Origin: Sedimentisphaerales bacterium
Lineage (GTDB): Bacteria; Planctomycetota; Phycisphaerae; Sedimentisphaerales; Anaerobacaceae
Length of the DNA stretch: 33,033 nucleotides
Direction of reading: 5' to 3'
NCBI GenBank assembly: GCA_016932095.1
Contig: JAFGDN010000034.1
Coordinates: 1-33,033, forward strand
A program made the translations under genes and the position numbers. Under the pieces are notes generated by a model. The model worked only from the letters and a program-made list of their open reading frames with translations, had not been told where the DNA came from and searched no databases. Position 1 is the first letter of the stretch, and each line of letters begins with the position of its first letter. Positions 1,073-14,414 of this stretch are shown in pieces.

Positions 1073-3544
1073 ATGTCATCGCAAAACGCAGATGGAATAG
1101 ATGCTGCATATAAAGATTTGAAAAACCTACTTCCCGACCTTCAGAGATGGGTTACTACAATTTCTAATGAGCAGGATACACGTTTAAAGATGATTGACCC
1201 CATATTCATACGTGTTCTAGGATGGGATCCTAGCGCGATTGCAACAGAAGAATACACGGGTGAAGGATTTGTTGATTATAAGTTTTCGATTGATGATCGA
1301 GCGCGTATGGTGGTCGAAGCTAAACAGGATGGAACAGATTTAGGTATTGCGAAAAGAACGCCTGGAAAACCCTATAAACTCGATGGGCCGGTACTGAGAC
1401 AAAAACCCTTACCTCTAGATGGAATTATCCAAGCCATTCGATATTGTGGTGCAAAAAATGCAGAGTTAGCTTGTGTAACCAATGGTCGTGAATGGATCAT
1501 ATTCCGGGGAAGTCGTTTAGGCGATGGAAGAGATACACTAAATGGTATGGCATTTATTTTCCCAACCTTAGAGTCCGTAGAAAAAAATTTCACTCTATTT
1601 TTCGATTTAATTGGAAGGTCTCGCGTAGAAAAATACATATTCCGTGCCTATTTTCAAGAGGCAGAAGGTCAAATAATAAGAGCTAAATCTTTTAGTCGGA
1701 CACTTTGGGCTATAAATGGATATAGATTAATAGAACGTTCTCCTTTGTCCCAAGATATCGATCGTGTAATGACAACATTCTTCCGTCGAATATCTGGAGA
1801 TGATGATCCTGAGATGCTTGCGAAGTGTTTTGTAACTACTAAGGAAAGCCAACTTGCGGACGAGAGGCTGATTCGAATTACTGATGAGCTTGCCACAAGA
1901 GTCAGAGATTTAGATACTAATGAAGCTACTGCATTAACTCAAGTTATCAAGCGGATACACGAAACGCAACGAAATGAATTTGTCTTGTTAGTAGGAACAA
2001 AAGGAGCAGGGAAATCGACATTTATGGATCGGTTCTTCCGCTATGTTTTACCTAAGGAAGTGCAAGATGTTTGTATTGTTGCTCGTCTTGATGTAGGAAA
2101 TAGCCACGGAGACACAGAGACAGTAGTTCAATGGTTGGATCGTTGCCTTTTGGATGAACTCGAGCAAACCCTTTTTGGGGAGGGAGGGCCAACCTACGAA
2201 GAGCTTCAAGGAATGTATTTTGATGAATACACACGCTGGATTCGGGGACCACACAAATTTTTATATGAAACCAATAAAACTGAATTCAAGGAAATCTTTG
2301 GCACACACATTGATAATAGACGCGAACAACATCCCGAAGATTACATAAGACGAATGATTCGGCATATCGTTTTTTCTCGAAGAAAAGTTCCGTGTTTGGT
2401 CTTTGATAACACAGATCATTTTAGTATTCGATTTCAAGAAAAGGTCTTCCAATACGCACGCTCAATCTATGAAAGCGAGATGTGCCTTGTTCTTATTCCA
2501 ATAACGGACAAAACGAGTTGGCAACTATCTCAGCAAGGAGCCCTTCAATCGTTTGATAACGAAGCATTTTTCTTGCCAACTCCACAACCTCGAATTGTTG
2601 TCGAACGTCGGATATCATTCCTTGAAGATATACTTAAGAATGAGAGAAGAGAAAAGGGTAAAGGATATTTTTTCGGAAAAGGTATTCAACTATCATTGGA
2701 TGACCTTCAGGGTTTCGTAACTTGTCTTCAACATGTGTTTTTAGAGACAGGGTCTGTTTCCAGTTGGATCGGAAACCTTGCAAATAATGATATTCGAAGA
2801 TGTTTACATCTTTCGCGGGAAATTGTTGCATCGCCATATCTTCGAGTTGTGGATCTTCTTAAAGCCTTCATCGCAAAAAGCGGTTACCAAATTTCAGAGT
2901 TTGATATAAAAAGGGCAATCATCCGAAAAGGGTATAACATATATCCTACTGGACAAAACGAATTCGTGCAGAATGTTTTTGCCCTCAACACAGAAGTTGA
3001 ATCTACGCCGTTATTATGTCTTAGGATTTTAAGGCTTCTTCGTGACGCTAAACATCACGAGGCTGGCGGTCTAGAGGACTATGTTATAATTGAACAAACT
3101 CTTGATTATCTTCAAGCTTTGAATATCGACCGTCGTGCAACGCTCTTATGTTTGGATGCCATGTTAAAGACAGGTCTTTGCTATAGTTATGACCCAACAA
3201 TTCAAGATATCCATAAAGTAGATAAGATACAGATTTCCACCTCTGGTCATCAACATCTGCTTTGGGGAAGTTGGGATGATACATATATTGGGTCAATGTT
3301 GAAGGTTACTCCAATAGTAAATGAGACTGTTTACAATTCCATTCATTCTCTTGAAACGCAAGATAAGGATATTCGATGGCGTTTGGAACTCATAATATTT
3401 ATGCAGTATCTCTTGGATGAAGACAATACTTTTATTATAGACATAGATCATCCCGCATACTTAGGCCAATTGAAGCTTAAACAGGCTATAAAGAAAAAAA
3501 TAAGAAAATTGCAAACAGATAAAGAAGAAAAATCCAATATATAA
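1073..3544 (+). CDS. HsdR-N-like PD-(D/E)XK nuclease fused to P-loop ATPase; candidate defence protein
   Basis: This 823-residue protein appears to be a fusion. Residues about 20-190 resemble the N-terminal nuclease domain of type I restriction HsdR subunits: VDYKF (D68), VVEAK (E82, K84), then QAIRY and CVTNGREWIIF. Residues about 295-480 form a P-loop ATPase with Walker A GTKGAGKS (308-315) and a Walker B-like CLVFDNTDH (441-449). NDIRRCL looks like a sensor-2 helix. The region after about 640 looks like a winged helix. The ATG follows GAAAGGA at good spacing. There is no HsdM/HsdS, helicase or methylase beside it, so it is not a classical restriction system. Hand counts give 38% GC at 1141-1200 and 35% at 2401-2460, against 63% at 5101-5160 in guaA, which suggests transfer. 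The fold assignment is by motif reading, and the anti-phage role is inference. Confidence 0.8.
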   Translation: MSSQNADGIDAAYKDLKNLLPDLQRWVTTISNEQDTRLKMIDPIFIRVLGWDPSAIATEEYTGEGFVDYKFSIDDRARMVVEAKQDGTDLGIAKRTPGKPYKLDGPVLRQKPLPLDGIIQAIRYCGAKNAELACVTNGREWIIFRGSRLGDGRDTLNGMAFIFPTLESVEKNFTLFFDLIGRSRVEKYIFRAYFQEAEGQIIRAKSFSRTLWAINGYRLIERSPLSQDIDRVMTTFFRRISGDDDPEMLAKCFVTTKESQLADERLIRITDELATRVRDLDTNEATALTQVIKRIHETQRNEFVLLVGTKGAGKSTFMDRFFRYVLPKEVQDVCIVARLDVGNSHGDTETVVQWLDRCLLDELEQTLFGEGGPTYEELQGMYFDEYTRWIRGPHKFLYETNKTEFKEIFGTHIDNRREQHPEDYIRRMIRHIVFSRRKVPCLVFDNTDHFSIRFQEKVFQYARSIYESEMCLVLIPITDKTSWQLSQQGALQSFDNEAFFLPTPQPRIVVERRISFLEDILKNERREKGKGYFFGKGIQLSLDDLQGFVTCLQHVFLETGSVSSWIGNLANNDIRRCLHLSREIVASPYLRVVDLLKAFIAKSGYQISEFDIKRAIIRKGYNIYPTGQNEFVQNVFALNTEVESTPLLCLRILRLLRDAKHHEAGGLEDYVIIEQTLDYLQALNIDRRATLLCLDAMLKTGLCYSYDPTIQDIHKVDKIQISTSGHQHLLWGSWDDTYIGSMLKVTPIVNETVYNSIHSLETQDKDIRWRLELIIFMQYLLDEDNTFIIDIDHPAYLGQLKLKQAIKKKIRKLQTDKEEKSNI

Positions 3545-4049: not shown

Positions 4050-4100
4050 GAGGAGAACGGAAGACAGAGGGCAGAGGACGGAAAACGGAGGACGGAGGGG
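4050..4100. repeat. GGACGGAAGACAGAGGAC-family repeat, copy 2
   Basis: This is the longest intergenic copy. It has repeated GGAGGA, ACGGAAGACAGAGG, GCAGAGGACGG and AAACGGAGGACGGAGG words, followed by GATT-rich sequence as in copy 1. That the two families travel together at 341-438 and 4050-4153 suggests one composite element. Confidence 0.7.
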
Positions 4101-4456: not shown

Positions 4457-5998
4457 ATGAATAACGAAACTATCGCCATATTCGATTTCGGCAGCCAATA
4501 CGGCCAGCTTATCGCCCGCCGCGTCCGCGAGCACAATGTTTTCTCGCAGCTCGTCCCGCCGGATACCTCCGCTGAGCAACTTGCCAAGTTAAATACCAGG
4601 GGCATAATCCTTTCCGGCGGCCCGGCAAGCGTCTATGACAAAGACGCGCTCAAGTGCGATGAAAAAATCTTCGACCTCGGCATTCCCATCCTCGGCATCT
4701 GCTACGGTATGCAGCTCGGCTGCCAAATCCTCGGCTGTAAAGTCATACCCGCCCGAAGCAGGGAATACGGCAGGACCACCCTCTCGATTATTGACAAAAC
4801 CGACCTGTTCCTGAACCTATCCGAATCGACTACCGTCTGGGCGAGCCACGGCGACCAAATTGAAGATATGCCTAAGGATTTCGCCCGTCTTGCCTATACC
4901 AAAACCTGCCCGTTTGCGGCCGTGCGATACCCGAAAAAGAAATTCTTCGGCGTCCAGTTCCATCCGGAGGTCTCACATACGCCAAAGGGTTCTGTGATTT
5001 TGAAAAACTTCCTTTATAACGTCTGCGGCTGCACAGGCGACTGGAAAATGAGCGATTTCGTCGGCCAAACCGTCGAAAAAATACGCAAACAGGTCGGCTC
5101 TTACGCCATAATCTGCGGCCTAAGCGGCGGCGTCGATTCCTCGGTAACGGCGGCGCTGGTTCATAAGGCCGTCGGAGACCAGCTCGTCTGTATTTTCGTC
5201 GATAACGGCCTGCTCCGCAAAAACGAACGCGAAGAGGTCGAATCGACCTTTCGCGACCACTTTCATATCGACCTGCGCGTCGTTGACTGGTCTGAACAAT
5301 TTCTTACTAAACTGGCAGGCGTTACCGACCCCCAGCAGAAGCGAAAAATCATCGGCGCAGAATTCATCGAGGCCTTCAAATCCGAGGCATCCCGAATCCC
5401 CAGGGCCAGATTCTTAGCCCAGGGAACGTTATACCCCGACGTTATCGAAAGCGGCGCCCGGGACGGTAACGCCGCGGCGAATATCAAGCTGCATCACAAC
5501 GTCGGCGGCCTCCCAAAAGAGCTTGGCTTCGAATTAGTCGAGCCGCTGAGGGATTTGTTTAAAGATGAGGTGAGGGTCGTCGGCGAATACCTCGGTCTGC
5601 CTGAGGATGTTGTCTGGCGTCATCCCTTCCCAGGGCCGGGGCTGGCGGTCAGGGTCATCGGCGAGGTTACCGCCAAACGGCTGGAAGTCCTGCGTGCAGC
5701 CGACGAAATCCTTATCGACGAAATCAAATCCGCAGGGCTTTACAGGAAAATCTCACAGGTCCTGGCGGTGTTGGTTCCCGTTCAGACCGTCGGCGTTATG
5801 GGCGACGGCAGGACCTTCGAGAATGTAATAGCAATCCGCGCGGTCGAAACCCCCGATTTTATGACCGCCGACTTCTCGCAAATCCCATACGATGTCCTGG
5901 CCACCATTTCCAGCAGAATCATCAACGAGGTCCGCGGCGTCAATCGGGTCGTTTACGACATATCCAGCAAGCCCCCTGCCACAATCGAATGGGAATGA
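4457..5998 (+). CDS. guaA: GMP synthase (glutamine-hydrolysing)
   Basis: The enzyme makes GMP from XMP, ATP and glutamine in the cytoplasm. It has 513 residues, a normal length for the fused two-domain form. The N-terminal class I glutamine amidotransferase shows the nucleophile Cys82 in GICYGMQLG and His169/Glu171 in QFHPEV. The ATP-pyrophosphatase domain shows SGGVDSS at 223-229. The C-terminal dimerisation domain carries the usual HPFPGPGL and ends KPPATIEWE. All catalytic residues are present. The ATG is the only sensible start, but the leader is repeat DNA without a clear ribosome-binding site. The gene overlaps the PAP2 gene downstream. No purine riboswitch was recognised in the leader. 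Confidence 0.97.
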
Positions 5999-6741
5999 GC
6001 CGACACCTTATTACGCTGATTATAGTTATTTTTCCTCAATACGCTGTTTATGCGGAATCGACGGACATCGGCGATTTTGCGTCAAGGTTTCTCGACGACG
6101 CAAACGAGACGTTTATAAAACCGAATAATATAGCAGCTTTGCTGCTGGCCAGCGGGGCCGGCGTTATCCTGCACAATTCCGACGCCGACAGGAACCTCAA
6201 CGATAATTTCGAACGTCATCGCGCCTTCAACGACACAACCGACAAGACATTCGACCTCATCGGAAATCCCGCAATTCAAATAGGGTCGGCTGGTATTTGG
6301 TATCTGTTCGGTCACGCAAACGCCGACGAGCTAAACAAGCAAAGGGCCATGACAATGCTAAGCGCATTGGCCATAACCGATACTGTAACATTCGGCCTGA
6401 AGGCAATCGTCAATACCGAACGACCAAACGGCGATAACCATTCCTTCCCAAGCGCGCATACCGCAAGCTCATTTTGCGCAGCATCGGTCCTCGATGAATA
6501 TTACGGCCCAAAGGTCGGCATACCGGCCTATATCGCCGCCTCACTGGTTGGCTGGCGAATGATGGATTCCGGCGACCACTGGGCATCCGACGTGCTTTTT
6601 GGAGCAACGCTGGGCTTCATCGTCGGCCATTCAGCAGCCGGTAAACACAAACAGCTCGAAATCGCCGGCTTTCAGGTAGAGCCACTATTAAGCTTAAACG
6701 TCAATTCCGCAACCGGAATTTGCCTGGTAAAACGCTTTTAG
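5995..6741 (+). CDS. PAP2-family phosphatase, exported or membrane-attached
   Basis: This is a type 2 phosphatidic acid phosphatase-like protein of about 248 residues. The first 25 residues form a hydrophobic export signal ending near AVYAES. The family's three motifs are present: K-x6-RP (KAIVNTERP), PSAHT, and a third motif in [14 protein letters not shown]. In the third motif six residues, not the usual five, separate Arg from His. Such enzymes hydrolyse lipid phosphates or undecaprenyl pyrophosphate, and the substrate cannot be told here. The start at 5995 makes an ATGA overlap with the guaA stop, suggesting translational coupling. An in-frame ATG six bases earlier is possible. A functional link to GMP synthesis is not implied. 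Confidence 0.88.
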
Positions 6742-6844
6742 AAACACTGATTTACCCCGTATGGTATTTTCGAATGAATGGCAAACATCCTATAATATAA
6801 TGGATGACTGTGATGAAAGGGCTGAAATGAATATAATTTTTTAC

Positions 6845-6873
6845 TTGACAAATACATAGGTTGATAGTTAAAT
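6845..6873 (+). promoter_or_regulatory. Sigma70-type promoter for the response regulator gene
   Basis: TTGACA (6845-6850), a 17-bp spacer, then TTAAAT (6868-6873, four of six matches to TATAAT). It lies in the 202-bp spacer after the PAP2 gene and about 70 bp before the ATG at 6944, a plausible leader length. Confidence 0.55.
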
Positions 6874-6943
6874 TAGGGCAATGAGGCAATTTGGATAGAA
6901 TAGCAGCAAGGACCGGCATTGAATTTGCAGAGGAGAGCTTAAA

Positions 6944-7522
6944 ATGAAGGAGCTTTTCACTACAGGAGAAGCAGCGGATGTTTGCAGGGTCAGCCAACAG
7001 ACGATAATCAGGTGTTTCGATTCCGGCCGGCTGGAGGGATTCCGAGTACCGGGGTCGCGTTTCAGGCGGATACCACGCGACAGCTTAGTGAAGTTTATGA
7101 AGGCAAACGCCATTCCCTTAGACGCCCTCGATACAGGTAAAAAGAAGGTTCTGATAGTCGATGACGACGCTGAAATCGTGGATTTATTAGTGGAAGTTCT
7201 GACTCGTGACGGCAGATTCGATGTAAAAACGGCAACAAGCGGATATGAAGCCGGGATACAAACCCATCGTTTCAGACCCGATTGCCTCCTTCTGGACTAT
7301 ATGCTGCCGGATGTAAACGGTAACATTGTTTGCCATACAATAAGGAGAAATCCTGAGTTCGAGAACATCAAAATCATCATTGTAAGCGGTGTAATCAAGC
7401 AGGATGAGATAGACCAGCTTTTGAAATCCGGGGCACAGGACTTTATCAAGAAGCCATTCGATATAAATGATTTAATCAAAAGGATTTGCACGACTCTCGA
7501 AATAGCTCAGCGGGCGTCATAG
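6944..7522 (+). CDS. Response regulator: excisionase/MerR-type HTH plus receiver domain
   Basis: Domain order is inverted relative to common regulators. Residues 1-55 are a short HTH of the excisionase/MerR (HTH_17) kind: LFTTGEAADVCRVSQQTIIRCFDSG, with RRIPRDSL. Residues 67-185 are a CheY-like receiver with acidic VDDD (72-75), phospho-acceptor Asp118 in LLDYMLP, Ser148 and Lys170 in FIKKPF, so it should be phosphorylatable. ATG follows GAGGAG at good spacing. It sits 80 bp before a histidine kinase on the same strand, and repeat copy 3 lies between the two. They probably form a two-component pair. Targets are unknown. Family assignment is firm and partnership is inferred. Confidence 0.9.
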   Translation: MKELFTTGEAADVCRVSQQTIIRCFDSGRLEGFRVPGSRFRRIPRDSLVKFMKANAIPLDALDTGKKKVLIVDDDAEIVDLLVEVLTRDGRFDVKTATSGYEAGIQTHRFRPDCLLLDYMLPDVNGNIVCHTIRRNPEFENIKIIIVSGVIKQDEIDQLLKSGAQDFIKKPFDINDLIKRICTTLEIAQRAS

Positions 7523-7560
7523 CGGAGGACGGAAGACAGATGACAGAGAACAGACGACGG
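7523..7560. repeat. GGACGGAAGACAGAGGAC-family repeat, copy 3
   Basis: GGAGGACGGAAGACAGATGAC is followed by AGAGAACAGACGACGG, beginning right after the response regulator stop codon. It fills most of the 80-bp gap to the kinase gene. Confidence 0.7.
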
Positions 7561-7602
7561 TTTCCTGTTTTCTGTCTTTTAATTTGTGATTAGAAAGGTT
7601 TT

Positions 7603-9906
7603 ATGACGGGAAAGAATAACGATATATCTGCTGTTTACAAAATTGAGCAGGCAATAGGACAATGCGAAATAGTGCCCATATTGCCTGCAGTTGTCTCGCG
7701 CTTTCTTGCCCAGCTTGCCGGAATGGAGCTTACCCCCGCTACACTGGCGGAACTACTCGAATCTGACCCTGCTTTGACAATTCTGGCGCTGCAGCTTTGC
7801 CGGAAAAAAGGGATAAGCATAAATGCCGCGACAGGTGCGGGTGTTTCCTGGATTCAACAAATGTTCAGGACAGTAACGCTGCGTGAAATCAGGGACGCGG
7901 TTTTGTCGGCCAGGATTTACGGCAGTCTTGAAGAGGACGTCAGGACCGGGTTTCGAAGAGAGCTGACGCGACATTCGTTAGCGGCGGCCTGCTGCGCCGA
8001 GCGACTGGCGCAAGCGGCGTCGCCTGCGCTCAATGGACGAACGTCTTACCTCGCGGGACTTTTACACGACACGGGGAAATTCCTTTTAGAGGAGGTAATG
8101 CCGAAGAGTTTTGACGCCCTGCTGGAAGAGGCCAGGTCGGGAAAGAGCAGTTTTTGTTTCGTTGAGCGGAAAAACCTCGGGACAGACCACACGATAATCG
8201 GCAAGCGGTTCGCCCAGAAGCTGCGCCTTCCGGGCGAGGTCATACTCGGAATCTGGCTTCATCATGAGCACACAGGCGCTCTGTCAGAAGCTGTTCCGCA
8301 GGCGAGGATTGCCTGCGTCATCGAGCTTGCCGACTGCATAGTCCGCCGGTCAGGTATCGGCGAGTCGGGAAGCTATGACGAAGCAGCAGCAGAAACAATC
8401 GACTCGATAACATCGGGATTAGGCCTGACGAGCGAGCAGATTCAGCGGGTTGAGCAGGATCTGCCTGAAATTGTCCGGCAGAAAAGTGAAACAGCGGGCC
8501 TGACAATATTGCGGCCTGGATGGGCTTACTGCAACGCATTGCGTGAGATAACGAGCCAGCTTACCGCGGAGAGCGCAAGATTATCCGAGGAAAGCGTCCG
8601 CCTGCAGAGTAACGCAAGCCATTACGATTTTGTCAGAGAATTGCTGCCGAACGTCAATTCGACAACGACGGCGATAGAAGTCGCGGAGCAGTTAGCCATC
8701 TGCTGGCAGCGGTTCTACCAGACGGGGCCGGTATGCGTTTATCTCATCGGGGCCGACACGGCGAAAAGCGTCGAAGCAGTCATAGTTGAGAATCAACAAA
8801 AGACAAAGACATCGGTGTTTGACGTTCCCGAGGATATCGTTTTAATCCCACAAACAGCAAGCGATAAATTCGAAGTTCTCGATGCGTCTGATTATGCGGA
8901 CTGGCTGTTAGAGCAATCCGAGGTTGAATTTGACCTTGGCCGGACAAAACTTATCCCGTTACAGTCGGCGGGAAGGACCGTGGGGGTAATAATTTTCGAG
9001 CTTCGTCATCCGGCTGGTTCGACAAGCTCACCACAAGGGCAAGGCGATATTTCGCAGCGTTTCGCGCCGGCAGCAAGATTAGGGGCGATATTGCTGGATT
9101 TGCTCGAGTCAATCAGGGCGGAGCAGTGGTTCGCGGAGAGGTTTGCAGAGGTTTTAACTACCGGAGGACAGAGGACGGAGGACAGAGGACAAAAAATTGA
9201 ACGTCCAACATCGAACATTGAACAAAGAACACAGAAGACAGATGCAGAGGCGCTGGCGGAAATGGCGGCTGGTGCAGCGCATGAATTGAATAATCCTCTT
9301 TCGGTCATATCGGGCAGGGCCCAATTACTGGCAAATACAGAAACGGACCCTGAGAAAAAACGGATATTAGAACAGATACAGCAAAACGCGGGAGAATTAG
9401 CCGCGATAATTGATGATTTGATGAGCTATGCGAACCCGCCGGCGCCCAAGCCGACGGAAATGACCATAAGGCAGATTATCGACGAGGCCATCGACCTTGC
9501 GGGCACAAAGACGCCGATTAACCGGGCCAATATCAAGATTGAAATTTCGCCTGATACGCCAAACGTTTTTGTCGATTCGGCCCAGATTGACATAGCAGTA
9601 TCGAATATAATTTGCAACGCCCTTGAATCATACGAGGGGCAGGCCGGGTCGCTGACGATACAAGCGTCCGGCGATAAAACGAATTCATTGGTTACCATTC
9701 AAATCATCGATACCGGCCGGGGAATGGATGAGCAGACGCTTGCCAAGGCGGCGCAGCCGTTCTTTTCGGCAAAGCCGGCGGGCAGGAAACGAGGGATGGG
9801 GCTGGCACATTGCCAACGGCTGATAGAACTCAACAGAGGAACGCTCGCAATCGAAAGCGAGGAGGGAAAAGGGACAACGGTGACGGTTGGGCTGCCGTGC
9901 AGGTAG
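7603..9906 (+). CDS. HDOD/HD-domain sensor histidine kinase
   Basis: This is a 767-residue cytoplasmic-looking protein with no membrane segment. Residues about 20-250 are an HDOD/HD domain that keeps a complete set of HD-type residues: His124, His155-Asp156 (LLHDTGK), His196, His220-His221 and Asp244. There is no GYP motif. Residues about 340-515 look like a divergent GAF-type sensor. The kinase core follows: H-box AAHELNNPLS with His560, N-box NIICNALESY, G1 DTGRGMD and G2 GMGLAHC, ending in a normal HATPase domain. About 26 codons just before the H-box (9162-9240) are dispersed-repeat DNA read in frame. It probably signals to the neighbouring HTH-receiver protein. A weak AAAGG-type Shine-Dalgarno precedes the ATG. 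The input signal is unknown. Confidence 0.9.
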   Translation: MTGKNNDISAVYKIEQAIGQCEIVPILPAVVSRFLAQLAGMELTPATLAELLESDPALTILALQLCRKKGISINAATGAGVSWIQQMFRTVTLREIRDAVLSARIYGSLEEDVRTGFRRELTRHSLAAACCAERLAQAASPALNGRTSYLAGLLHDTGKFLLEEVMPKSFDALLEEARSGKSSFCFVERKNLGTDHTIIGKRFAQKLRLPGEVILGIWLHHEHTGALSEAVPQARIACVIELADCIVRRSGIGESGSYDEAAAETIDSITSGLGLTSEQIQRVEQDLPEIVRQKSETAGLTILRPGWAYCNALREITSQLTAESARLSEESVRLQSNASHYDFVRELLPNVNSTTTAIEVAEQLAICWQRFYQTGPVCVYLIGADTAKSVEAVIVENQQKTKTSVFDVPEDIVLIPQTASDKFEVLDASDYADWLLEQSEVEFDLGRTKLIPLQSAGRTVGVIIFELRHPAGSTSSPQGQGDISQRFAPAARLGAILLDLLESIRAEQWFAERFAEVLTTGGQRTEDRGQKIERPTSNIEQRTQKTDAEALAEMAAGAAHELNNPLSVISGRAQLLANTETDPEKKRILEQIQQNAGELAAIIDDLMSYANPPAPKPTEMTIRQIIDEAIDLAGTKTPINRANIKIEISPDTPNVFVDSAQIDIAVSNIICNALESYEGQAGSLTIQASGDKTNSLVTIQIIDTGRGMDEQTLAKAAQPFFSAKPAGRKRGMGLAHCQRLIELNRGTLAIESEEGKGTTVTVGLPCR
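9162..9240 (+). repeat. Dispersed repeat inside the histidine kinase reading frame, copy 4
   Basis: Words GGAGGACAGAGGACGGAGGA and ACAGAGGAC are followed by an AACGTCCAACATCGAACATTG-like phrase and an ACAGAAGACAG end. It is translated as GGQRTEDRGQ...RPTSNIEQRTQK. It is about 79 bp, keeps the frame, and falls in the linker between the sensor region and the H-box. Confidence 0.8.
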
Positions 9907-11817: not shown

Positions 11818-12462
11818 TCATAGCGTTTTGTGTTTTTCTCCCGTTCTCCTGTTTCGATGTTTTGCAAGCATCGCCATACCCAAAAACAGCAACGTAACGG
11901 TTGCCGGCTCCGGAACCGAGGGAACAGGAACGTCGCTTTGGCCCTGGTCATCGGGGACGGGGACGTCATCGATTTCATCTTCATCCGGCGGGCGCTTCGG
12001 CCAGCGCCATTTGTGGGGTCTTCTTCCGCCTATGGCCTGCTCGAGGGGAGCGGCAATATCACCCGCGGAACGATACAGGCCGCCGCGGCCGCCCGATACC
12101 TGGGCTTCTTCCTCGGCCATCTCCATAAGGTCAAATTTTGAACGCTCGAAGACGGCGATAACGATTTTTGGCGAATCGAGGAATACGAGCGTGCTGCTTG
12201 ACGCGGCTTCTTTGACTCTGCCCTGCCAGCAGACAAACTGATAACCCGGTTTCGGCGAGGCGGACAATGTTACTTCGGCGTCCCTGTCATACATATGAAC
12301 ACCGGGGGAAATGTTTAACGAGCCGCCTTCAGCGGGCGTAACCTGCAATAACAAGGCGGTGCCACTATTTGCGCCAGAGGCCTCGCCGATGAAACCCGGC
12401 AGCAGAATTGTCATAAAACAAGCTGCCGATACAAACATTAAGTTTGAAACTCTATACGACAT
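11818..12462 (-). CDS. PEP-CTERM secreted protein with InlB B-repeat-like domain
   Basis: The protein has 214 residues. It has an N-terminal signal peptide (to about residue 30, ending GEASGA) and a region at about 38-105 resembling the divergent InlB B-repeat: VTPAEGGSLNISPG, VTLSASPKPGYQFVCWQG, IVIAVFE. A proline- and aspartate-rich linker (PPDEDEIDDVPVPDD) follows. The C-terminus is a PEP-CTERM signal: VPEPATVTLL, a hydrophobic helix, then RNRR. Such proteins are exported and processed by an exosortase to the cell surface or extracellular matrix. No exosortase is in this window. It is third in a minus-strand run of PEP-CTERM genes, 38 bp after the previous one. ATG follows a close AGGGGAC. 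Confidence 0.85.
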   Translation of the reverse strand: MSYRVSNLMFVSAACFMTILLPGFIGEASGANSGTALLLQVTPAEGGSLNISPGVHMYDRDAEVTLSASPKPGYQFVCWQGRVKEAASSSTLVFLDSPKIVIAVFERSKFDLMEMAEEEAQVSGGRGGLYRSAGDIAAPLEQAIGGRRPHKWRWPKRPPDEDEIDDVPVPDDQGQSDVPVPSVPEPATVTLLFLGMAMLAKHRNRRTGEKHKTL

Positions 12463-12500
12463 TGTCCCCTGTATTTATTTCAACTCGGTCTCACTATTTT

Positions 12501-13166
12501 CTACGAATGCCGATTATTTTTCGTGTGGCGTCTTGAAACAATAAAAGCCAAAGCGCCGCCAAGCAATACAATCGACGCCGGCTCAGGACTAGGAGCAGGT
12601 GGTGCACTCTGTTCGGTGACCACGACCCTGAAATCGCCCGCAACAGGCGCATACGCACTGCTAAAAATCAGGAAGGTCGAAAGCTCGCCCGCGTTAATGT
12701 ATCCCACACCCGGCGACCAGGTCCAACTGCCTTGCTTATCAGTATCGCTTGGGTTCGGGTCGGGCATCACTGCATCTGCGTGATCCGGGTCCGCTACGGC
12801 CTGCGTCAGATGCATCAAAAACTGGGCAATCGGGTTGCCGGACAAATCCACCAGGTTTAAAGATGTCACGTCTGTTTGTGCATTATTGGCGTTGATCAAC
12901 TGGTAGGCGTAGAGATAACGGTCGGTATCAGGGAAGTCGATATCGCTGACCCAGTCAACCTCATCGGAATAGGTCTGCATATCATAGACGTTAAAAGTCA
13001 GCATCACGTTAATGTTTTCTTCCTCGTTCTCGAAGATTTTGTAGCCGGACCAGCCGTTATCCTCGCCATATGTGCTGTCCGGCAGATAATACGGCGCGGC
13101 CGACGCGATTCGGGCCAGCGACCCCAGAAGAATCATTACGCCCGCGATACAGAAACTTTTGCGCAT
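12501..13166 (-). CDS. PEP-CTERM secreted protein, middle gene of the operon
   Basis: The protein has 221 residues. The chosen ATG is eight bases after AGAGGG and begins a clean signal peptide (MRKSFCIAGVMILLGSLA, cleavage near ASAAP). A start at 13238 would put 24 polar residues ahead of the signal and is unlikely. The mature part is acidic and beta-rich-looking (YLPDSTYGEDNGW, NVMLTFNVYDMQTY, DRYLYAYQLIN), with no family I can name. The C-terminus is PEP-CTERM: SPEPASIVLLGGALAFIV followed by SRRHTK. Gaps of 64 bp upstream and 38 bp downstream to two other PEP-CTERM genes suggest one transcript. Surface or matrix location is expected from the sorting signal. Confidence 0.82.
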   Translation of the reverse strand: MRKSFCIAGVMILLGSLARIASAAPYYLPDSTYGEDNGWSGYKIFENEEENINVMLTFNVYDMQTYSDEVDWVSDIDFPDTDRYLYAYQLINANNAQTDVTSLNLVDLSGNPIAQFLMHLTQAVADPDHADAVMPDPNPSDTDKQGSWTWSPGVGYINAGELSTFLIFSSAYAPVAGDFRVVVTEQSAPPAPSPEPASIVLLGGALAFIVSRRHTKNNRHS

Positions 13167-13230
13167 TTTCATCACCCTCTTTTCTCGATTTCGTTCGAAA
13201 TTCTTATATTGTTTGCCTAACGATGAACTT

Positions 13231-13899
13231 TCAGACATTTGGTTTTCTCCTCAAGCCCAGCACAAATCCCAGCCCCAGCAGCGTAAGCGTCGCCGGTTCG
13301 GGTACTACCGGCTGGGGTATGCAGTTTGTGTCAACAGTAATCTGGTCAACGTAAATGTCGCCCTTAATGGTAATCCACTCAATCGATGGATTGGGCCAGA
13401 TATGAATTTTGTAAAGCGTGCTTACCCACTCATCTCCAAGGGACGTGTTTTCTTTCACGATTTCCATCCTGTCGTAACCGATATCGGTTTCGACGCCCAG
13501 AATGGGAATGTTAGGCAGACGGCTAAAATCATAATCGCTGGCCTTCCAGACCAGCTCAATCCACATATCCTTTTCCGTCAGCATAACAGTATTATTCGGA
13601 ATGCTTATATCTATCAAATCCGTAAGGATGCATATTCCCGAATGCTGGTCTAAAGACAAGCCCCACTGGGAGTTTCCGTAATCAAGCGTCGGCGTTCCGA
13701 AAAGGTTATCACAGCCGGGGTCGGGATCTGCGGGTTCGTTATAGGGTTCAGAAAATGACCATTGCTGAAAAGTGGTCCCTTCCTCTCCCCGCCAGGCAGG
13801 CTCGGCAAAAGCGATAGTCGGCAGAAATGCCAAAACGCACACAAGCGTAAGAAACGCTTCTGTTTGTTTTCGAGACATCTTCACCTCAATCTTTTTCAT
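13231..13899 (-). CDS. PEP-CTERM secreted protein, first gene of the operon
   Basis: The protein has about 222 residues, with a signal peptide (FLTLVCVLAFLPTIAFAEPA) and a C-terminal sorting signal VPEPATLTLLGLGFVLGLRRK. The mature region (WRGEEGTTFQQWSF, MWIELVWKASDY, IEWITIKGDIYVDQITVD) suggests an all-beta extracellular domain, but I do not recognise the family. Two starts are well placed: ATG at 13899 after GGAGG, and ATG at 13878 after GAGGTG. The first is given. It leads the three-gene PEP-CTERM run and is preceded by a gene-free stretch of about 500 bp. Function is unknown beyond export and probable exosortase processing. Confidence 0.82.
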   Translation of the reverse strand: MKKIEVKMSRKQTEAFLTLVCVLAFLPTIAFAEPAWRGEEGTTFQQWSFSEPYNEPADPDPGCDNLFGTPTLDYGNSQWGLSLDQHSGICILTDLIDISIPNNTVMLTEKDMWIELVWKASDYDFSRLPNIPILGVETDIGYDRMEIVKENTSLGDEWVSTLYKIHIWPNPSIEWITIKGDIYVDQITVDTNCIPQPVVPEPATLTLLGLGFVLGLRRKPNV

Positions 13900-14414
13900 C
13901 AACACCTCCGTGCCCGTTAAAATCTGAACATCCGCCGATTTATCGCAATTTATTTCACGCCTTTTTATCTTTTAATCGCTTTTTAAAGCGCTCATACGCA
14001 AACGTAATATGGCTCTCCCGAACGCCCCTGCCGTATGCGCGCGGAATGGGCGCCCGTCTCTTCTCTGAATCTCTTCCCGAAAATAACCTCCACCCCGAAA
14101 TACGCGGTCAGACCCTTATTCCAACCGCCATCTCAATGGCTGTAAGCACCTATAAATAAAGCACTTACATCATCTACACAAGTGAATTTTCCCCTTTTCC
14201 CCGCTATTGAACTTAGCTACTTCACTATAAAAGAAAGAACTCACTGTCAAAGAGCACTACCGCATTCTCTATCTCTTCTTCTGTGAGTTTTCTCGTCAGC
14301 CCCCAAGCTGACAATTGCATTAAAACATATTCAGTCAAACAAGTCAAGAGAATTTTTGAAAAAAATAAAAATATTTTTTCATATCCGGACCTGCCTGATT
14401 TGGCATATCGGCAA
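13900..14414. other. Gene-free region: long leader of the PEP-CTERM operon
   Basis: No gene is seen. A plus-strand frame at 14283-14720 is antisense to the aminotransferase for most of its length. On the minus strand this is the upstream region of the PEP-CTERM run. It contains G-rich words (GGGGAAAAGGGG, GGGGTGGAGG), a possible 8-bp hairpin at 14140-14168 that pairs only in the minus-strand RNA through two G-U pairs, and CATACG/CGTATG complementary words. I could not match it to a known riboswitch. A GTCAGC-CCCCAA-GCTGAC hairpin at 14295-14312 lies just downstream of the aminotransferase gene. Confidence 0.55.
14224..14250 (-). promoter_or_regulatory. Possible promoter of the PEP-CTERM operon
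   Basis: On the minus strand a consensus TTGACA (14245-14250) is followed 15 bp later by TATAGT (14224-14229, five of six matches). The spacer is shorter than the usual 16-18 bp, which lowers confidence. It would give a leader of roughly 310-320 nt before the first PEP-CTERM start. Confidence 0.35.

Follow-up and report, generated by a model that had tools for sequence, protein, structure and literature searches.

The gene and its locus

The window, i.e., the whole 33,033-nucleotide stretch of DNA analysed here, carries at positions 1073–3544 of the forward strand an intact open reading frame, which starts with ATG, lies directly downstream of an AGGA-type ribosome site and encodes a protein of 823 amino acids. 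From the N- to the C-terminus, this protein comprises a predicted HsdR-N nuclease domain, a predicted AAA+ ATPase and a winged-helix-like C-terminal part. It was found to be a full-length member of phrog_14719, a PHROGs v4 sequence cluster of unknown function: the profile match (E = 2e-215) covered 801 of the 823 residues (residues 7–807 against positions 2–809 of 833), and no difference between the window protein and the cluster was found. The same profile search returned phrog_14719 for all 14 members scanned. A sequence search of solved structures with the window protein gave no match.

The motifs listed in the original prediction, namely D68, E82, K84, VTNGREWIIF, GTKGAGKS (308–315) and CLVFDNTDH (441–449), were all located at the residues given; to these, our analysis added an invariant E33, a Q120xxxY124 motif, and the pair R513/R575. 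Thirteen residues (E33, D68, E82, K84, Y124, G308, G313, K314, D445, N446, D448, R513, and R575) were identical in all 50 aligned relatives, despite identities to the window protein as low as 16–20%, which indicates strong purifying selection on both domains, beyond chance.

In line with the original description, the chain contains no helicase, and no methylase or specificity gene was found in the window, which on the upstream side covers the 1072 bp between the contig edge and the gene. No other defence gene was found within the window, nor any Rfam family or tRNA, and therefore no tRNA-borne integration site is in view. The remaining genes include three consecutive PEP-CTERM-tailed proteins on the reverse strand (11818–13905), one of which has an InlB-type B-repeat domain, and an unusual arrangement at 6944–9906, where a response regulator with an N-terminal HTH_17 helix-turn-helix lies beside an HDOD/HD-fused histidine kinase.

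The low GC content noted previously was borne out (GC 0.39; GC3 0.305 versus 0.41–0.68 in 15 neighbouring genes). The repeat-rich spacers, which had been taken as a second sign of transfer, did not retain this meaning, as the GACAGAGGACRGA repeat was found 29 times genome-wide. Repeats of the GACAGAGGACRGA type occur on many contigs, often in spacers, and were rejected as island borders; in the window, short repeats of this kind are present at 339–370, 4053–4098, and 9162–9191.

In three congeners (L097–L099; relatives and other loci compared here are numbered with the prefix L), guaB ends approximately 40–60 bp before guaA. In the source genome, guaA (window 4457–5998) is instead preceded by the window gene and a spacer of about 0.9 kb, and guaB is located on a different contig (G000:C91:919-2388, L102), where it is followed by 918 bp, containing an unrelated small secreted-protein-like open reading frame, before the contig ends. 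The two genes are thus adjacent in the congeners and separated here, which indicates that the guaBA junction was opened, probably through insertion of the window gene, with the two contigs presumed to adjoin. Judged from its low GC3 and the lost guaB–guaA adjacency, the window gene looks like an acquisition, and a recent one.

Nuclease, ATPase and C-terminal domains

The predicted nuclease domain, of the HsdR-N-type PD-(D/E)XK class, occupies approximately residues 8–200 (1094–1672, forward strand, as are all features below). It contains E33 (1169–1171), an acidic residue in the helix preceding the nuclease core, and the catalytic motif D68...E82-x-K84 (1274–1324); all four residues were conserved in 50 of the 50 relatives. 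The Q120xxxY124 motif (1430–1444) is of the kind found in HsdR/RecB-type nucleases; position 120 was Q in 33 relatives and E in 17, and Y124 was present in all 50. Across the relatives, the motifs followed the order E...D...ExK...[QE]xxxY...[TS][ND]G, which we take to be the HsdR-N order. Of the 14 relatives scanned with Pfam, 5 matched HSDR_N_2 and 2 matched HSDR_N.

Residues 1–205 were modelled separately from a 32-sequence alignment (pLDDT 91). The best structural match of this model was HsdR 3h1t (Z 11.0; 120 residues superposed with an rmsd of 3.4), followed by BpuSI (Z 10.6) and DrdV (Z 10.0); the same three structures were near the top of a Foldseek search, in which no match reached E < 0.001. 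The predicted PD-(D/E)XK nuclease is thus present in the model as an HsdR-N restriction-endonuclease fold, and by motif and modelled fold residues 1–205 are an HsdR-N nuclease.

The AAA+ ATPase, predicted to be of the ORC/Cdc6/TnsC/CED-4 type, extends over approximately residues 222–633 (1736–2971). It contains the Walker A motif GTKGAGKS (1994–2017) and the Walker B motif CLVFDNTDH (2393–2419), in which D445, N446, and D448 are invariant. The full-length model (pLDDT 82.5) matched ORC, Cdc6, TnsC, and CED-4 with Z values of 12.2–14.6; scores for ORC, TnsC, and CED-4 lay within about 2 Z units of each other, so that STAND and ORC/TnsC types score alike. The invariant R575, in the sequence NNDIRR (2783–2800), occupies a sensor-2-like position and, from the alignment, looks like part of a sensor-2 motif, an ORC-type trait. 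Of the "sensor-type NTPase" that had been proposed, the fold (ORC/Cdc6/TnsC/STAND-like) was recovered, and a sensor role is plausible only. The Walker B motif reads DNxD, with N446 replacing the usual AAA+ catalytic glutamate in all 50 relatives, which makes ATP hydrolysis uncertain. ORC, Cdc6, TnsC, and CED-4 ATPases assemble as rings or filaments.

Cdc6 (1fnn) aligned across model residues 228–808, and since the alignment reaches residue 808, the model places a winged-helix-like part after the ATPase, in agreement with the tail originally described. This winged-helix-like and helical C-terminal part spans residues 640–823 (2990–3541). No C-terminal repeats were reported by Pfam, and the protein ends about 190 residues past the ATPase.

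An HsdR-N domain could also be the remnant of a type I restriction subunit, orphaned by the loss of its partners, and some relatives are indeed annotated as "type I restriction endonuclease". This origin is scarcely tenable, as it is already contradicted by the motor, which is an AAA+ of the ORC/STAND type: Pfam and structure comparison revealed no SF2 helicase domain in the window protein, and no ResIII/SWI2_SNF2 match. Moreover, the catalytic and ATP-binding residues are kept in 50 out of 50 relatives across great divergence, which argues for a family of its own rather than an orphaned HsdR.

Some relatives carry an additional C-terminal domain, either a cold-shock domain (Pfam CSD in 4 members; 6 of the 50 alignment rows by motif) or an S1 domain (16 of the 50; one by Pfam, the others by motif). 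Neither was found in the window protein. On the tree of relatives, the S1 tail has a single origin and the cold-shock tail requires three changes. Both kinds of tail belong to the OB folds and bind nucleic acid in single-stranded form.

Distribution and genomic context of relatives

Relatives were found on three MAG contigs, from Desulfobulbaceae, Omnitrophota, and Gemmata (65, 50, and 46% identity, respectively), as well as in 30 plasmid records, 39 IMG/VR contigs, and 15 of 5426 E. coli chromosomes. In the phylum of the window, 7 of 392 genomes, in scattered families, contained a family member according to a trimmed profile; the untrimmed profile held cold-shock genes, which had inflated the count to 56/61. 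The nearest relative on the tree comes from the Desulfobulbaceae MAG, whereas L075, L074, and L078, which belong to the same family, order, and class as the window, fall on another branch; the tree as a whole does not track the organisms. The distribution is therefore patchy and mobile, and homologues are not fixed in core genomic contexts. No match was obtained when three distant members were compared with 50,697 phage genome records.

Two relatives whose match started at profile position 165 (L082 and L083) were considered as carriers of other N-terminal effectors; this was rejected, as both have an HsdR-N-like motif. Some copies are broken, with an in-frame stop (L081 and L087), split frames (the Rhizobium plasmid copy L010) or a short frame (L042, although its near-copies in E. 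coli are mostly intact).

In 16 of the 39 IMG/VR contigs, the family gene is located in P2-like prophages, in a slot bounded by the replication gene gpA and the portal gene gpQ. This slot was mapped with three L058 genes identified by PHROGs, namely gpA, gpQ, and terminase, which served as tblastn queries. Both flanks were present in 11 contigs (L032, L033, L037, L040, L049, L057, L058, L062, L063, L065, and L067) and a single flank in five (L038, L044, L045, L060, and L066), in four of which the contig ends there. The copies in the slot were of the cold-shock type (L032 and L033), the no-tail type (L037, L038, L040, and L045) and the S1 type (L044, L049, L057, L058, L060, L062, L063, L065, L066, and L067). 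These types correspond to three distant branches, which makes three or more separate entries into the slot probable. The cold-shock-type copy L032 shares the main branch with the window protein (31% identity). The gpA-gpQ slot is an anti-phage hotspot, where P2 itself carries old and tin (PMC9122126). It also holds non-defence cargo, such as partition genes, which counts against a defence reading (PMC9122126).

In E. coli, the family gene occupied accessory slots in two other prophages, namely between the DUF977 and DUF1367 genes of Rac (8 of the 5426 genomes) and between the DUF977 gene and hokD of Qin-like prophages (7 genomes). WP_040091717.1 and WP_151312481.1 are proteins of the Rac type, and WP_001349602.1 is one of the Qin-like type. 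Further homes were plasmids, including one with integrating-conjugative-element genes (L011), a phage-plasmid-like replicon (L014), and phage neighbourhoods of tail and recombination genes.

With such hosts, the protein might serve the mobile elements themselves, as a nuclease-bearing DNA loader of the TnsC/MuB/ORC kind, acting in prophage or plasmid replication, transposition or maintenance rather than in defence. The best fold matches include TnsC and MuB, and plasmid copies are common and sometimes lie near a replication gene (L008, L013, and L015). We nevertheless regard this as improbable: the family gene is a single gene, without a transposase or conserved replication partners, it is found in variable accessory slots of many unrelated elements, and it stands alone on chromosomes such as that of the window.

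Defence genes were found near the family gene in 3 of the 10 MAG/genome loci (type I R-M, TIR/ThsB, and Dnd-like), a raw count with no matched background. At L002, the family gene and a type I R-M operon share 4 bp. At L086, it lies near a DndC-like gene with AAA_23 and HNH genes; as the PADLOC tally is pooled over loci, the DndC-like gene was assigned to L086 from its sequence and a PAPS_reduct match. At L001, two TIR/ThsB proteins are encoded nearby, together with an integrase. In addition, the family gene of a plasmid (L006) adjoins an HsdR/N6-methylase. No recognisable defence gene adjoined the family member at L003, L074, L085, L088, or L089.

Two of these neighbourhoods have features of their own. 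The DndC-like gene of L086 is followed first by the AAA_23 ATPase gene and then by that of an HNH_2 nuclease (4901–8216), forming a phosphorothioation-like set, possibly a variant. At L001, a TIR/ThsB-like domain is fused to an 8xMP membrane domain (697–1977), with the second, small TIR protein upstream; the pair may possibly be a separate defence unit.

Candidate function and comparison with known systems

We interpret the window protein, with a probability of roughly 0.68, as a single-protein defence against phages or, more broadly, mobile elements, in which an HsdR-type nuclease is gated by an AAA+ ATPase. This reading draws on the nuclease fold and motif, the ORC/Cdc6/TnsC/CED-4-like ATPase, the invariant catalytic and ATP-binding residues, the absence of helicase partner domains, the mobile and patchy distribution, and the repeated siting in phage defence slots. 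The nuclease fold, the patchy mobile relatives and the placement in the P2 hotspot thus support the single-gene defence candidate of the original prediction. The anti-phage reading is weakened by the lack of a match in the 50,697 phage genome records, by the defence-free neighbourhoods of several relatives and of the window gene itself, and by N446 in Walker B.

In the proposed mechanism, the ORC/Cdc6/TnsC/STAND-like ATPase would bind ATP and, upon a phage trigger or contact with foreign DNA, might switch state or assemble. This change would position or pair the N-terminal HsdR-type nuclease domains on DNA, and the paired domains would then cut. Their target could be phage DNA alone, as in restriction, or also that of the host, as in abortive infection. 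The C-terminal winged-helix part, with the cold-shock or S1 domain of some relatives, may provide contact with nucleic acid or a ligand.

Alternatively, the protein might be a type IV-like restriction enzyme. Its winged-helix or tail domain would then recognise foreign or modified DNA directly, and its ATPase would load or move the nuclease; neither an infection sensor nor cell death would be involved. In favour of this, the nuclease is a restriction-type domain, no methylase was found near the window gene, and one relative is annotated as "Predicted type IV restriction endonuclease". Moreover, the L002 gene runs into a type I R-M operon, and the fold matches are to ORC/TnsC-type ATPases, which load on DNA. 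However, Pfam found no modified-base reader domain, and the ATPase, which is no SF2 helicase, was unmatched by McrB-type models; we consider this alternative rather unlikely.

If the single-protein defence reading is true, it would represent restriction-type cutting under initiator-like ATPase control, without methylase or helicase. The members in E. coli prophages make this function accessible to ordinary plaque assays. It is also conceivable, although doubtful, that the relatives together form an unnamed, widespread defence family, in which the helicase motor and partner subunits of an HsdR-type nuclease were swapped for a self-contained ORC/TnsC-like AAA+ loader. The C-terminal OB-fold tails, absent from some members and made up of one or two cold-shock domains or of S1 in others, would be exchangeable and would read single-stranded nucleic acid from phage replication.

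No named system could be assigned originally, and no PADLOC system (2023 models) fits the window protein, which gave weak P-loop matches only (e.g., mad8, E = 0.005); AriA was matched by 2 of the 14 relatives only (E = 0.003). The family is conserved, mobile and spread across several bacterial phyla; it is filed under "unknown function" and missing from the 2023 defence catalogue. In the literature, we found no paper naming it and no published phage-protection, nuclease or ATPase assay of a member. In the DefensePredictor article, whose supplementary tables lie outside this comparison, 42 systems of E. coli were validated; PD-(D/E)XK or P-loop NTPase domains occur in many of them (PMC13092281), and a relative may already be among the 42.

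The N-terminal nuclease of HsdR (HSDR_N/HSDR_N_2; 3h1t, 2w00) shares its fold and the D...ExK and QxxxY motifs with the window protein; however, in HsdR the nuclease is followed by an SF2 helicase and HsdM/HsdS are required, whereas the window protein has an ORC/STAND-type AAA+ and appears to stand alone. The type IIG restriction enzymes BpuSI and DrdV have a similar nuclease fold (Z ~10), together with methyltransferase and target-recognition domains, both of which the window protein lacks. ORC/Cdc6, TnsC, and CED-4 have the same succession of AAA+ fold and winged helix (Z 12–15), but no nuclease, and the Walker B of the window protein differs in its DNxD sequence, with N for the usual catalytic E.

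STAND defence proteins with Mrr or BpuSI_N nucleases have been described (PMC9122126). Like the window protein, STAND/Avs-type proteins combine an N-terminal nuclease effector with a STAND-like NTPase and, like the family, they are mobile single genes also found in prophage or satellite hotspots. They differ in their C-terminal repeat sensors, in place of which the ATPase of the window protein is followed by only some 190 residues that include a winged-helix-like part, and the PADLOC (2023) Avs models matched neither the window protein nor the 14 relatives scanned at E 0.01. CoCoNuT/McrBC type IV systems resemble the family in associating a nuclease with an NTPase and, in some members, cold-shock-type OB folds (PMC11090510), but consist of two or more genes with an McrB GTPase, whereas the family has one gene and a different NTPase. 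OLD, Gabija, and PARIS use a TOPRIM nuclease and an ABC-type ATPase, in contrast to the HsdR-N nuclease and ORC-like ATPase of the window protein. A nuclease and an NTPase in one chain is a known design, which the family realises by pairing HsdR-N with an ORC/TnsC-like AAA+.
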